DNA of 36,887 bases from Natronolimnohabitans sp. A-GB9 (GTDB lineage Archaea; Halobacteriota; Halobacteria; Halobacteriales; Natrialbaceae). Each line of letters begins with the position of its first letter. Position 1 is the first letter of the stretch. The notes beneath the pieces were generated by a model. The model was not told the DNA's origin and made no database searches. It saw only the letters and a list, made by a program, of their open reading frames with translations. The stretch covers positions 1 to 36,887 of the forward strand of contig NZ_JAVDDV010000027.1 of NCBI RefSeq assembly GCF_030848565.1. The letters run 5' to 3'. The position numbers were made by a program, and so were the translations under genes. Below are positions 12,355 to 33,273 of this stretch, one piece after another.

Positions 12355-12356
12355 CT
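12334..12356 (+). repeat. Origin-recognition-box-like repeat, copy A
   Basis: A 23-bp repeat consisting of a G-rich half (GGAGAGTGG) and the core TTCCGCTGTTC. It differs from copy B at three positions and has the same orientation. It lies exactly at the 3' end of the initiator gene, overlapping the first two bases of its stop codon on the + strand reading, so the gene is bracketed by copies. Confidence 0.65.
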
Positions 12357-13542
12357 AGTCGCGGGGTGCAGCTTCGAGCACGATATCGGCCCGCATGGAA
12401 CATTCGTAGACGTGGTATTTGCCGCCGGACCGGCCCTCATTGCGGAGGATTTGGTCGGCGAAGCCTTGCATGGAGAGTTTATCGAGGTGGTCGCGGACGC
12501 TCCGGGTTGTTGACAGCGGGTCTAGCCCGGATTGTTCGCAGACGTCGGTGTAGAGGGAGTAGATTTCCTTTGTTCTGGCAGGGGTTTTATTGTCGATTTC
12601 GAGGAGTGCCAAGGTGTGGAGGATGTGACGCTGTTGGACGGTGAGGCTGCTGATGCGTTGTTCGAGGTTGCCGCGTTCAACGGTCTTCTGGGCATCACGG
12701 ATGTGGTCTTCGGTGACCACATCGTCGCCGTAGTCGTCGGCGGTTTTGCCCGCTGCTTTCAATATGTCGAGGCCCTGCCTGGCGTTTCCACTGTCTTGGG
12801 CGGCGAGTGCGGCGCAGAGTTTGATTGCGGCATCGGTGATCGCATCATCATTAAACGCGATCGCGGCCCGGTCGGAGAGGATGACTTCGAGTTCGTCTGC
12901 GTTGTACGGAGTGAAGTCAATTTCTTCTTCGGCGAACGAACCTTTCGTTTTCGCTGACAAGGTATCGCGAAAGGTGTAGTCGTTGGAGATGCCGATGATG
13001 CCGACATTGGCATGTTCGAGGCGGCCGGTCGCTTGGCTGCGACTGAGATCGTAGAGGAGGGAATCAATGTGTTCGATGTGATCGATCTCGTCGAGGATGA
13101 GGAGGACCGTGCCGTCCCGTTTATCGATCTCTTCGTAAAGTGCGTCGAGGGCGTCACGGGTTGAAAGGCCCCGGGCCGGGAACTCGTCGGCACTACTGTC
13201 GCGGAGATCGTTGACGAGGGTGCGGACGACTTTGAACGCGGTCATCTCGTTACAGTTGAGTTGGACGGTAGAAAGCGGCGTGTCGGTGGTGTCGCACGCA
13301 TCGTACATCATGTCGATCATGTACCGGGTGACCGCAGTTTTCCCGGCCCCGGTATTGCCGTAGACCATGATGTTGTCCGGCGTATCCCCTTCAACGACGG
13401 GCCGCAGCGCTGCCGCATACTGATCGATCTCTTCATCCCGCTCGAGGATGCGTTCTGGTTCGTACGATTCAGCAAGTGCATCCCGGTGTGAGAAGACGCT
13501 GTCCCCGAAGTCCAGCAGCGGATTGTCCTCAGCGTCAGGCAT
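12355..13542 (-). CDS. orc: Orc1/Cdc6 replication initiator
   Basis: A 395-aa AAA+ initiator that binds origin repeats and starts replication. Walker A GNTGAGKT is at 62-69, Walker B LLILDE at 147-152, sensor 1 in GISND at 185-189, and the sensor-2 arginine in GNARQGLDIL at 252-261. The winged-helix domain covers about 295-395, with QQRHILHTLALLE, the helix STTRSVRDHLDKLSMQGF and a wing at GRSGGKYHVYE (369-379). Length and order are standard. Codon use and GC are lower than in the neighbouring glycan genes, which hints at separate acquisition. It is flanked on both sides by 23-bp origin-like repeats, and its promoter is overlapped by tandem copies of their core, suggesting that the protein recognises this set and controls itself. 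Which Orc subfamily it belongs to cannot be told here. Confidence 0.96.
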   Translation of the reverse strand: MPDAEDNPLLDFGDSVFSHRDALAESYEPERILERDEEIDQYAAALRPVVEGDTPDNIMVYGNTGAGKTAVTRYMIDMMYDACDTTDTPLSTVQLNCNEMTAFKVVRTLVNDLRDSSADEFPARGLSTRDALDALYEEIDKRDGTVLLILDEIDHIEHIDSLLYDLSRSQATGRLEHANVGIIGISNDYTFRDTLSAKTKGSFAEEEIDFTPYNADELEVILSDRAAIAFNDDAITDAAIKLCAALAAQDSGNARQGLDILKAAGKTADDYGDDVVTEDHIRDAQKTVERGNLEQRISSLTVQQRHILHTLALLEIDNKTPARTKEIYSLYTDVCEQSGLDPLSTTRSVRDHLDKLSMQGFADQILRNEGRSGGKYHVYECSMRADIVLEAAPRD

Positions 13543-13582
13543 TCACGCTGCACATTCAATTCACGAAACATAAATCACCGTG

Positions 13583-13618
13583 TTTCCGCTGTTTCCGCTG
13601 TTTCCGCTGTTTCCGCTG
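13583..13618 (+). repeat. orc: Four tandem TTTCCGCTG repeats in the initiator leader
   Basis: Four perfect, directly adjacent copies of TTTCCGCTG, followed by a broken fifth (TTCCACTC). The 9-mer is the core of the origin-like 23-bp repeats. The array starts 9 bp after the TATA box when read with the initiator gene and spans its predicted transcription start, so binding here would block transcription. Confidence 0.85.
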
Positions 13619-13626
13619 TTCCACTC

Positions 13627-13634
13627 TATTTATA
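13627..13634 (-). promoter_or_regulatory. orc: TATA box of the orc gene
   Basis: Read on the - strand this is TATAAATA, a strong archaeal TATA box. At the usual distance transcription would start near 13,600-13,605, leaving a leader of about 60 bases to the ATG at 13,542. Repeat B begins 7 bp upstream and the 9-mer array begins 8 bp downstream. Confidence 0.7.
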
Positions 13635-13641
13635 CGAAGAG

Positions 13642-13664
13642 GGAGAGTGGATTTCCGCTGTTCC
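13642..13664 (+). repeat. Origin-recognition-box-like repeat, copy B
   Basis: G-rich half GGAGAGTGG followed by core TTTCCGCTGTTCC. It matches copy C, which is inverted, at 21 of 23 positions. It lies directly upstream of the initiator TATA box, with its G-rich end pointing away from the AT-rich segment. Confidence 0.8.
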
Positions 13665-13807
13665 AGCCACGAAGGTGGGGACCAAGGAAACCGGCAAAGA
13701 GAACGAATGCAGTCGCAGAACAAGGACCAGTGGACAAATCGGGTGACAGCGGCCGGTCGCGGCCGGTCATTCTTCCCATTGCTCCCTCAAAAGATCCAGT
13801 ACGGCTC

Positions 13808-13860
13808 TTGTTTTTGGTAAGGAAATATAAAAGTTAGTATTGGTTAGCTATCTTTCATGA
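13808..13860. other. AT-rich candidate duplex-unwinding element
   Basis: A run of about 50 bp with strikingly low GC, including GGAAATATAAAAGTTAG, inside an otherwise GC-rich chromosome and lying between inverted recognition repeats B and D/C. This is the position and composition expected of the unwinding element of a haloarchaeal origin. Confidence 0.65.
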
Positions 13861-13887
13861 GCAGGAACAGAAGGTGATTCAGAGAGA

Positions 13888-13910
13888 AGAACAAAGGAAA
13901 CCTACTCCCC
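13888..13910 (-). repeat. Origin-recognition-box-like repeat, copy D (diverged)
   Basis: On the - strand it reads GGGGAGTAGG then TTTCCTTTGTTCT. It keeps the G-rich half and TTTCC of the repeat but has TT in place of GC in the core and differs at the last base. It has the same orientation as copy C, 28 bp further out. Confidence 0.55.
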
Positions 13911-13938
13911 TTCTTTCACGGGCGGGGGGTTACGGACA

Positions 13939-13961
13939 GGAACAGCGGAAACCTACTCTCC
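13939..13961 (-). repeat. Origin-recognition-box-like repeat, copy C
   Basis: On the - strand it reads GGAGAGTAGG then TTTCCGCTGTTCC, a near-perfect inverted partner of copy B (2 differences in 23). The B-C pair encloses 274 bp that include the AT-rich element. Confidence 0.8.
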
Positions 13962-14047
13962 GTCTGTCCACTCAGCTGTTGGAGACCAGTTGCTCCCGGT
14001 AGGGCTCAACCGACGAAAACGACTGACGAGGAGCGCCAGCGCTGCTA

Positions 14048-22363: not shown

Positions 22364-23599
22364 TCAGTCGTCGTCCTCGCCATCGTCGTCGGCTTCCTCT
22401 TCAGTCTCGTCATCGTCGTCGGCTTCCTCTTCAGTCTCGTCATCGTCGTCGGCTTCCTCTTCAGTCTCGTCATCGTCGTCGGCTTCCTCTTCAGTCTCGT
22501 CATCGTCGTCGGCTTCCTCATCATCACCGGCTTCGTCACCGTCGTCTACGTCGAGATCACCATCGATTTGCGACGCCGTCTCAGTGGACTCGGCCACGTC
22601 AGTCCAGAAGTAGGTATCACGATACGCGTTGTCGTTCGTCGGCGTGTCGGGAACCGACCCATCGTACAGTAGCACGGAGAACCGAACGGTTCCGTCGTCG
22701 GCCGTCGGCGTGATCTGCAATTCTTCGGTTTCGTTCTCGCCATCTGCGACCGTGACCTCCGTACTGTCGGTCGTCGTTCGCTCGAGCACCTCGCCGTCGT
22801 CGATCCATTGCTCTTGGACGACGATCGTGTACTCCGTCGACTCACCCTCTCGGTTTTCGATCGCTGCGGTGACCGTCGCCGTCTCGTTCGACTCGAGCGC
22901 ATTCGGATAGTCAGCAGCGACGAGTTCGCCCGATTCGTTCTCGGTGAGCAGTTGGAGATCCGTATACTCCTCGCCCTGTTGTGGAGCGATGAGTGCATAC
23001 CCGACGGTCGTTATCGCGATCAGAATGCTGAGGACGAGGACGATATTGACGGCGGTATGGAGTGTCGATTTCGTATCGAAGATCGCGCTGTGAGCAACTC
23101 TGAGTCGGCGTCCGAACTCGACCTGGTACCGTTGTGTGGGCGGGACGGCGAGCCGTCGGCCGACTGCGAGGGTGGCAGTGATTAGCGCGAAACAGCTCAC
23201 CGTTCCGACGACGGCACCGGTCGTGTAGCCCCACGGCGTCACTGCAAGCGCCAGCCCCAGAAGGGGAAGCAGCGCAACGCTCAAACCGAACGAGAGGGCC
23301 ACACGCTCGACGTCACTTACGTGTCGTACCTGTGCGATCCGAAGCGAAGACTCGGTGTCCGAGACGGGTGCCGCTCGCGGAAAGAGCAGCGAGACGGTGA
23401 CGTATCCGGGAACGAGAAACAACAGCGGAAACCCGACCGCTGCTCGAGCGACCGTCGACGAAACGTCGACGACCGCCAACAACACAGCCGCACCGATGAC
23501 GAACGCGGCAACACCGAACAAGTCGACCGGAGCGCTCGCGACGAGGTTGCTGTTTCGCCGCCGCAGGGCAGCAACCGGTTTGGTGAGAATGTCTTTCAT
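22364..23599 (-). CDS. DUF1616 membrane protein with acidic repeat tail
   Basis: A 411-aa membrane protein. Four hydrophobic segments in residues 24-160 and one near 185-208 (NIVLVLSILIAITTVGYALI) surround the typical DUF1616 start (PVDLFGVAAFVIGAAVLLAV, FLLVPGYVTVSLLFP). Residues 210-340 form a beta-rich domain with IENREGESTEYTIVVQEQW and FWTDVA, expected outside the membrane. The C-terminus is an acidic tail in which residues 367-406 are a perfect tandem repeat of ten residues (EADDDDETEE-like), from a 30-bp DNA repeat. DUF1616 proteins are common in archaeal surface-glycan regions but have no proven function. Convergent with the deacetylase and divergent from the PGF-CTERM gene. Confidence 0.85.
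   Translation of the reverse strand: MKDILTKPVAALRRRNSNLVASAPVDLFGVAAFVIGAAVLLAVVDVSSTVARAAVGFPLLFLVPGYVTVSLLFPRAAPVSDTESSLRIAQVRHVSDVERVALSFGLSVALLPLLGLALAVTPWGYTTGAVVGTVSCFALITATLAVGRRLAVPPTQRYQVEFGRRLRVAHSAIFDTKSTLHTAVNIVLVLSILIAITTVGYALIAPQQGEEYTDLQLLTENESGELVAADYPNALESNETATVTAAIENREGESTEYTIVVQEQWIDDGEVLERTTTDSTEVTVADGENETEELQITPTADDGTVRFSVLLYDGSVPDTPTNDNAYRDTYFWTDVAESTETASQIDGDLDVDDGDEAGDDEEADDDDETEEEADDDDETEEEADDDDETEEEADDDDETEEEADDDGEDDD
22381..22500. repeat. Four perfect 30-bp tandem repeats in the DUF1616 gene
   Basis: A 30-bp unit beginning CATCGTCGTCGGCTTCCTCT occurs four times without a mismatch and begins again at 22,501. Each unit codes for ten residues, so copy-number change would keep the frame. 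Confidence 0.95.
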
Positions 23600-31305: not shown

Positions 31306-33273
31306 TTAGCGAGCGTCGTACTCGACGTCGACGTATGCGTTCCCGTTCAGGTGGAAATCGACGATGTCACCGCTGAACCAGTAGGCGTCACGGGAGTCGT
31401 CGACTGAACCTTCGACTTTGTTGCCGTCGATAATGTCACTGTCCTCGATCGACGAGTCCCGATGAGTCGACTTCTCGACCTCGCCGGAGACTTCGAACGA
31501 GTAGGCTGCCGAGTCATCAGTTCCGGTCGCATCGATGACGATCGCGTTAGACGGGCCGTCGCCCGTCTCGTCCTCGTCGTCAGCGTCTTCGGCAGTTTTC
31601 TCGATGATCTCCTCAACGGTCATCTCCTCGCCGTTCAGTTCGGCCCACATTACGTCCGGCTGGTCGATGTCGATCTCCTTGATCGGACCGTCGACGAGGA
31701 ATGCGTCGCCGAAGCCGCCGCCGGACAGTCCCTCGGTGTGCCAAACATCGTCCGCCTTCTCGACCGTGACGTTCGATGAATTACTCGAGATTTCGTTCCC
31801 GGATGGACTCTCGTAGGGCGCCACCGTCATTTCGACCGGGCCGTCAGCCGTGAACTCGTACTCGGCATAGCGGGCGTCGGGCTCGGTCACGAACGCGAGG
31901 AGGTTCTCTTCGACGTCATCATCGTCATCGTCCTCACCACCCTCGGACGTCTCCTCGATGATTTCCTCGACAGTCATTTCTTCGCCGTCGAGTTCAACCC
32001 ACATCACGTCGGGTTGTTCGATATCTATCTCCGTGATCGGGCCGTCAACGAGGAACGCGTCGCCGAAGCCGCCGCCGGACAGTCCCTCGGTGTGCCAAAC
32101 ATCGTCCGCCTTCTCGACCGTGACGTTCGATGAATTACTCGAGATTTCGTTCCCGGATGGACTCTCGTAGGGCGCCACCGTCATTTCGACCGGGCCGTCA
32201 GCCGTGAACTCGTACTCGGCATAGCGGGCGTCGGGCTCGGTCACGAACGCGAGCAGGTGTTCGTCCGCATCGATGTCATCGTCGGCCTCGTCTTTGTCAT
32301 CGCTTCCATCATTACCGTCGCTCGGCGGCGATCCGCCGCCGCTCGAGGAGCCGGCCGCCGCCTCCTCTGGCGTCAGCGGTACGCCCTCGACCTCGTCGGG
32401 CTCGGTTCGGGGCGTCCGATCAGCCGATTCGCCGATAATTTGGGCGCCCGAGCTGTGGCTGCCGGTGCTTTCGAAGTATGTGTTCGTGGCCGTCACTGTC
32501 GCATCGTGTTGCCAATGTCCGTCACTGACGACGATGTCACCGAACTGCGTCGAGGCGCTCAGGTCACAGTCGATGACCTCGGTGTCATGGTAGAAGCCCC
32601 AGTAGTTGCGGGTACAGTCGGTGACGACACAGTTCTCGAGATACGATCCATCGGAACCAAGTCGGAAGCCAGCCGGCGCACAGTCGGCTGCGTAGGAGTC
32701 GCGGATGATGACCTCACCTTGCCCGCCGCGGCCGCTGGAATGGCTGGGCAGGTCGCCGGGCGACGAGCCGTAGACGGCGTTATCGGAGAAACCCTGCAGA
32801 TTCAGGTTCTCCATAATTAGCGTCCCGGCGTGGGAGTTGCTGACGTAACAGCCGGTTGCCGCGCCGCCGTAGGTCGTCTGCTCGTCAAACGGCGCGGTTC
32901 CGTCAGCCCAGTAGAAGTTCTCGACGCGACCGGTCCCACCGGAGTTGACGCTGACGATGAACGGCTCCTCTTTCGTATCGTCGTCCCACGTCCCCTTGAT
33001 CCCGACATTGCGGACGGTCCAGTCGCTACCGGTCGCACGAATGTAGAACTTCGCGTGCGGAGCGGAGATGTCGATCAGCAGATTCTCGAGTGTCTCGCCG
33101 CTGCCTACGCGGTAGGTAACGGAGTCGTGTGCATCAACGACTACCTCGTCGTAATCGCCGTCGCTTGCAGCCACACCCATGCTCGCAGCGATCGTCGCAC
33201 CGACGCCCGCAACCCCCTTTAGATACGTTCGTCGATCGACAATTTGGTCAGATTCGCTATTTCGGTTACGCAT
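31306..33273 (-). CDS. Tat-exported right-handed beta-helix protein with duplicated C-terminal domains
   Basis: A 655-aa secreted protein. The N-terminus DRRTYLKGVAGVGATIAAS (13-31) is a twin-arginine signal. Residues 40-300 look like a parallel beta-helix of the pectate-lyase-like type (NVGIKGTWDD, GCYVSNSHAGTLIMENLNLQGFSDNAV, YLENCVVTDCTRNYWGFYHD). A Ser/Gly/Asp linker follows, then two near-identical domains (about 335-450 and 453-570), each starting LLAFVTEPDARYAEYEF, and a third related one (NAIVIDATGTDDSAAYSFEVSGEVEKS) at the end. DNA of the two copies is identical for about 197 bp. The acidic linkers suit high salt. Such proteins can bind or cut surface polysaccharides; no catalytic residues were confirmed. 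A dyad operator candidate lies upstream. Confidence 0.85.
   Translation of the reverse strand: MRNRNSESDQIVDRRTYLKGVAGVGATIAASMGVAASDGDYDEVVVDAHDSVTYRVGSGETLENLLIDISAPHAKFYIRATGSDWTVRNVGIKGTWDDDTKEEPFIVSVNSGGTGRVENFYWADGTAPFDEQTTYGGAATGCYVSNSHAGTLIMENLNLQGFSDNAVYGSSPGDLPSHSSGRGGQGEVIIRDSYAADCAPAGFRLGSDGSYLENCVVTDCTRNYWGFYHDTEVIDCDLSASTQFGDIVVSDGHWQHDATVTATNTYFESTGSHSSGAQIIGESADRTPRTEPDEVEGVPLTPEEAAAGSSSGGGSPPSDGNDGSDDKDEADDDIDADEHLLAFVTEPDARYAEYEFTADGPVEMTVAPYESPSGNEISSNSSNVTVEKADDVWHTEGLSGGGFGDAFLVDGPITEIDIEQPDVMWVELDGEEMTVEEIIEETSEGGEDDDDDDVEENLLAFVTEPDARYAEYEFTADGPVEMTVAPYESPSGNEISSNSSNVTVEKADDVWHTEGLSGGGFGDAFLVDGPIKEIDIDQPDVMWAELNGEEMTVEEIIEKTAEDADDEDETGDGPSNAIVIDATGTDDSAAYSFEVSGEVEKSTHRDSSIEDSDIIDGNKVEGSVDDSRDAYWFSGDIVDFHLNGNAYVDVEYDAR
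31703..31899. repeat. Duplicated segment, copy 1 (354-bp period)
   Basis: These 197 bp are identical, as far as I can compare by eye, to 32,057-32,253. The offset of 354 bp is a whole number of codons (118), so the duplication is in frame. Flanks differ at scattered positions, so the identity has sharp edges. Confidence 0.9.
32057..32253. repeat. Duplicated segment, copy 2 (354-bp period)
   Basis: The partner of 31,703-31,899, coding for residues about 341-406 of the beta-helix protein; the other copy codes for about 459-524. Confidence 0.9.

Follow-up and report, generated by a model that had tools for sequence, protein, structure and literature searches.

Does an archaeal replication initiator that is bound at its origin also control its own gene? 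The question is raised by a haloarchaeal contig of 36.9 kb (the window, meaning the whole stretch of DNA analysed; it belongs to a 4.30-Mb genome assembled in 72 contigs), in which a run of 9-mers lies just upstream of an orc/cdc6 initiator gene. The original prediction was that initiator bound to these repeats would occlude its own promoter.

The array and the orc promoter

Four exact copies of TTTCCGCTG begin at 13583, 13592, 13601, and 13610 on the forward strand and together span 13583-13618; on the orc sense strand, the same array reads (CAGCGGAAA)x4. TRF, run on the window, reports a repeat at 13581-13620 with a period of 9, 4.4 copies, and a 100% match. The lag-9 identity of the array, 27/27, is the highest in the window, compared to a maximum of 23 and a mean of 17 in 100 windows simulated with a first-order Markov model, and the 18-mer formed by a pair of units has no other occurrence in the 4.30-Mb assembly. 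Given this excess over the simulated maximum and the uniqueness of the 18-mer pair, the array is not a chance repeat; the description of it as four perfect copies was correct. Other repeats in the window lie within reading frames on the reverse strand: a 354-bp unit repeated about 1.9 times (93%) at 31600-32258, in a 655-aa ORF without a Pfam match (31306-33273), and about five copies of a 30-bp repeat (98%) at 22376-22565, in the C-terminal part of a DUF1616 protein (ORF 22364-23599).

The product of the orc gene has an AAA+ ATPase domain, a Cdc6 lid, and a C-terminal winged helix, the architecture of Orc1/Cdc6 initiators. It matches Pfam Cdc6_lid (E=1.4e-23) and Cdc6_C (E=6.4e-20) and aligns to Sulfolobus Cdc6-1 (2qby_A, E=1.4e-55), and also to 2v1u_A. 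Upstream of the annotated ATG, we found no in-frame ATG, GTG, or TTG before a stop codon. The predicted origin runs upstream of the gene from 13543 to about 13965. The features of the locus are these:

12355-13542, reverse strand: orc/cdc6 initiator gene, 395 aa, with its ATG start at 13542 (Pfam, structure-sequence alignment).
13568-13575, reverse strand: ATTTATGT, the proximal TATA-like box, at a distance that suits a leaderless orc mRNA (conserved position relative to array and ATG).
13576-13580, reverse strand: CGGTG, a G-rich box that separates array from TATA where the BRE would be expected; GGTGG is the family consensus (TATA-anchored columns).
13581-13616, reverse strand: head-to-tail array of four perfect 9-mers GCGGAAACA, a rotation of CAGCGGAAA (repeat scan, exact matches).
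13617-13625, reverse strand: degenerate fifth unit AGTGGAACA, completing a full ORB core GGAACAGCGGAAAC at 13609-13622 (sequence comparison).
13627-13634, reverse strand: distal TATA-like box TATAAATA, which may belong to a second orc promoter or be an AT-rich element of the origin (enrichment across loci).
13638-13664, reverse strand: promoter-side ORB GGAACAGCGGAAATCCACTCTCCCTCT (27-nt inverted repeat with 13939-13965).
13780-13899, no strand: AT-rich segment between the inverted ORBs, a candidate unwinding region (GC 0.32-0.40 versus 0.53-0.62 on either side).
13884-13914, forward strand: diverged second inverted ORB GAGAAGAACAAAGGAAACCTACTCCCCTTCT, the third copy overall (direct repeat D2, 79%).
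13939-13965, forward strand: inverted ORB GGAACAGCGGAAACCTACTCTCCGTCT (27-nt inverted repeat).

On the sense strand, the order is ORB GGAACAGCGGAAATCCACTCTCCCTCT, TATAAATA, AGTGGAACA, (GCGGAAACA)x4, CGGTG, ATTTATGT, 25 nt, and ATG. The proximal box lies 33 to 26 nt upstream of the ATG and directly downstream of the array, a spacing that would put the predicted start no more than 5 nt from the start codon, as in leaderless haloarchaeal promoters. Leaderless transcripts account for 72% of protein-coding transcripts in Haloferax volcanii, and the haloarchaeal BRE consensus is CGAAA (PMC4983044). A scan for sigma-70 promoters returned no hits; the sigma-70 model is not applicable to archaea.

The two arms of the 27-nt inverted repeat (13638-13664 and 13939-13965) are 89% complementary, and both arms share the core GGAACAGCGGAAA with the array, which bears out the claim that the 9-mer is the core of the origin repeat. 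A further exact copy of TTTCCGCTG begins at 13652 and an inverted copy lies at 13943-13951. The array unit is, as judged from its sequence, the ORB half-site itself; the earlier statement that the array is unlike classic origin boxes holds for its 9-bp period and fails for its unit.

Inverted ORBs flanking an AT-rich region beside orc, as seen here, are the layout of haloarchaeal orc-linked origins. A G-string 3' of the ORB half-site is missing: the tail is CTACTCTCC here and TACTCTC in two relatives (L006 and L042), and many other families of this Orc clade do have G-strings. The view that this locus would work like a haloarchaeal orc-linked origin stands; a strict assignment by G-string does not. 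The ORBs of this Orc subfamily (those at 13638-13664 and 13939-13965 in the window, and those of L006 and L042) end in TACTCTC(C), compared to a G-string in most haloarchaeal ORBs, which suggests a different second contact. The number of ORBs also differs strongly among relatives, from two or three in the window to about eight in L042, a 78%-identical orthologue whose inverted cores are mostly 42 bp apart and lie at about -343 to -678 relative to the start of orc.

The array recurs in register with the TATA box

We compared orc upstream regions sampled from the same family, the order, named genomes, and plasmids; the start codons of the relatives were assigned automatically, and the sample is weighted to one family. 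The general layout, as read from these sequences, is (ORB half-site 9-mer)n, GGTGG, TTTTATA, about 25-30 nt, and ATG. Within one large haloarchaeal Orc clade, most of the roughly 77 non-redundant orc promoters show it, and in other clades it is near background: the score is passed by 64 of 77 promoters in the clade and by 7 of 61 more distant ones, and shuffled sequences pass at a rate of 6%. Lag-9 self-identity of the upstream regions peaks only at -80 to -40 from the start codon. In the -95 to -30 region of 51 related-clade loci, lag-9 identity is 0.407 +/- 0.014, compared to about 0.25 at most other lags, with harmonics at lag 18 (0.342) and lag 27 (0.297); 56 more distant orc loci show no lag-9 signal (0.261). 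In a protein tree (FastTree, drawn with midpoint rooting), a fully supported branch divides the rows into 87, of which 60 bear the array, and 54, of which none does; these 54 rows control for what is generic in haloarchaeal orc promoters.

Orthologues of the window's Orc (L034/L041 and L042, 78-81% identical) carry the array with slightly different units (CAGAGGAAA) in 3-4 copies; the unit number varies between species, with three in L042 and four in L034. Differences of 9 bp at the species level occur in the L159/L160 and L034/L042 pairs, and alignments with diverged spacers are too loose for such differences to be counted. Distant paralogues (36-50% identity) have the array with other units, including CGGACAC, CGACAC, TGAAAC, CGAATC/CGTAAC, ACGAAAC, and CTGGAAA. 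The source genome (4.3 Mb) has more than 15 orc/cdc6-like genes, several with an array of their own and of different sequence (C3, C22, and C8).

The module is also present on Haloarcula hispanica pHH400, where GAACAGCGGACACTCCGGACACTGCGGACAGGGGTGGTTTTATG directly precedes the cdc6 gene. According to PMC3936714, oriP-cdc6K of this replicon could not be deleted and is its essential origin; the module thus occurs at an origin for which there is genetic proof of importance.

Anchoring 63 promoters on the proximal TATA box places half-site cores at -10 to -6, -19 to -15, -28 to -24, and -37 to -33, with GGTGG at -5 to -1 (G at 0.68-0.75 in positions -2 and -1) and TTTTA starting at 0. Wherever the proximal box was found, its 5' end and the start codon are, with few exceptions, 29-41 nt apart. 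Because this spacing fits leaderless transcripts and the cores are in register, the array directly adjoins the proximal BRE/TATA on its upstream side. TATA-like hexamers are also in excess 40-60 nt farther upstream than the proximal box, in about 20 of the 63 loci, and are absent just beyond; this distal box may be a second promoter.

A different orc clade (L103, L104, L110, L111, L112, L130, L017, and L020) has TTTCACCGGAAACACGGTGT or a close variant upstream of the orc start. With its end about 7-10 nt short of the start codon, it would cover the expected transcription start; it is a promoter-embedded ORB-like site of another design.

Which protein reads the array

The unit of each array tracks the ORBs of its locus. 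In a permutation test that treats loci as exchangeable, arrays match the ORB region of their own locus above those of other loci (best 12-nt match; z=11.3, 0/5000 permutations), compared to z of 1.5-2.2 for three control segments; the test in a previous form, applied to 51 loci, agrees. Array divergence also correlates with divergence of the winged helix after AAA+ divergence is removed (partial r 0.24, 0/1000), and the reverse control, AAA+ with the winged helix removed, gives a weak correlation (partial r 0.07, 30/1000). Known Orc proteins contact ORBs via the winged helix and, in one complex, a loop of the AAA+ domain (PMC9738581).

Within the genome, the ORB core is nearly private to this locus, which holds six of the seven matches with at most one mismatch. 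Two relatives, L035 and L043, have an orc that is 79% identical to the window's and lacks the first 27 residues; their upstream DNA is unrelated to the window's, and neither the array nor the ORBs were found when we looked for them there. This orc has apparently been cut off from its origin and promoter. Because arrays track the cognate ORBs and covary with the winged helix, because the core matches are private, and because array and ORBs are both absent at L035/L043, the evidence points to the linked Orc as the reader of the array. Cognate initiator sites would then lie inside the initiator's own promoter.

A site for another transcription factor, or a set of tandem BRE elements unrelated to Orc, is very improbable by comparison. 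Some units do resemble the haloarchaeal BRE consensus, but the unit changes with the cognate ORB between families (GGAAAC, GGACAC, CGACAC, CGAATC, TGAAAC); we set both readings aside because a general factor would not follow the ORB in this way. That the array is a functionless product of slippage is scarcely credible: four perfect copies do resemble a recent expansion, but the array recurs in register in orthologues and paralogues across an order.

The predicted operator and its relation to known systems

We favour, with moderate confidence, the reading that the array is an initiator operator built of head-to-tail ORB half-sites, at which Orc exerts negative autoregulation. The half-sites, fused head to tail at 9-bp spacing, would be read by the winged helix of Orc; the operator would sit directly upstream of the orc BRE/TATA and be closed by the G-rich box on the BRE. 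Orc would bind the array, probably as a cooperative head-to-tail oligomer, and occupancy extending to the BRE/TATA would limit the loading of TFB and TBP. Once free Orc exceeded the capacity of the linked ORBs, orc would be shut off. What the sequences show is the anatomy of the site, its conservation, its TATA register, and its tracking of the cognate ORB; that Orc binds and oligomerises there, that the effect is repressive and not activating, and which of the TATA boxes serves orc are inferred from them. Full simultaneous occupancy of the units is uncertain, given that 9 bp is less than the ORB covered by one Orc in known complexes; how Orc could occupy sites only 9 bp apart is a structural question that the array raises.

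The original prediction placed the orc TATA box at 13627-13634 and the transcription start within the array, where bound Orc would block it. The box TATAAATA is present there on the orc strand and is kept distally in about a third of loci, so tandem promoters may exist, both affected by the operator. This start keeps the same reader of the site, is compatible with negative or positive control by Orc, and is somewhat unlikely: the 5' UTR would then be about 60 nt long, against the prevalence of leaderless transcripts in Haloferax volcanii (PMC4983044), and the proximal box ATTTATGT, which the prediction missed, is far more widely conserved. A start from the distal box is one option only.

Positive control through the same operator is unlikely. 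Orc bound upstream could recruit TFB/TBP or couple orc transcription to origin loading, and the array, upstream of and flush with the BRE/TATA, occupies a position that is usual for archaeal activators. The G-rich box stands in place of the expected BRE CGAAA (PMC4983044), so assistance may be required at this promoter. In Sulfolobus, the promoter of Orc1-2 is bound by Orc1-2 itself, whose DNA-binding residues are needed for damage-responsive expression from it (PMC9738581). However, Orc1-2 is a non-initiator regulator, and a self-activating initiator is harder to square with copy control.

The array may instead serve the origin itself, as an iterated ORB that aids unwinding or loading and lies near the promoter merely through the adjacency of origin and orc. 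Its ORB core and its place within the predicted origin agree with this, but lag-9 arrays are found only on the orc-start side, in the -80 to -40 interval, and not at the far ORBs, and the units hold the TATA register across families while ORB number and spacing vary. We consider this reading improbable.

Negative autoregulation of orc via the array thus remains the preferred reading, and the array probably does mediate autoregulation, as was originally proposed: orthologues and distant paralogues alike have it at the promoter, and it follows the cognate ORB, although the promoter geometry first described was incomplete. More tentatively, the module may be lineage-wide, with an Orc filament on tandem 9-bp half-sites reaching the BRE/TATA and providing each origin of a multi-origin genome with private, sequence-orthogonal feedback. 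The subject touched here is how archaea with many origins restrain each initiator; a conserved, origin-specific operator would be a simple reason why several orc-origin pairs coexist without cross-talk.

Plasmid Rep genes, whose products are not homologous to Orc, are under iteron/operator control, with initiator sites in the initiator's own promoter. Surveys of haloarchaeal origins (PMC3528665, PMC3936714, PMC4595724, PMC5350488, PMC4010727), in the portions available, cover ORBs, G-strings, a titration cluster, and a G-rich enhancer; term searches of their open-access text return no mention of promoter arrays, and those of PMC3528665 and PMC3936714 also none of tandem repeats, direct repeats, or a promoter element for orc, though an earlier mention, for example in Norais et al. 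2007, is possible. In its available portion, the review PMC4010727 proposes bacterial-like control and names no promoter operator for initiator Orc proteins.

The closest likeness is to the haloarchaeal ORBs beside orc/cdc6 (Wu et al. 2012, PMC3528665, and Wu et al. 2014, PMC3936714), with which this locus has in common the linked orc, inverted ORBs around an AT-rich stretch, and a family-specific core, here common to ORB and array. It differs from them in that the array repeats the half-site only, every 9 bp, head to tail and flush with the TATA box, and in that its ORBs end in ACTCTCC on the 3' side, not in a G-string. DnaA is a known case of initiator autoregulation, and the DnaA boxes in the dnaA promoter (cited in PMC3936714) are likewise initiator sites in the initiator's own promoter; the systems are not homologous, and here the players are an archaeal Orc and a TATA/TFB promoter. 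Sulfolobus Orc1-2 (PMC9738581) is an Orc-family protein at its own promoter, as is predicted here from sequence, but it is a non-initiator damage regulator that uses an ANTTTC motif and has no tandem ORB half-sites. Finally, in the oriC2D titration cluster of Haloarcula hispanica, as described in PMC3936714, extra ORBs also restrain origin activity; those boxes are complete, lie downstream of the gene, and have been proposed to work by titration, whereas the array described here lies at the promoter.
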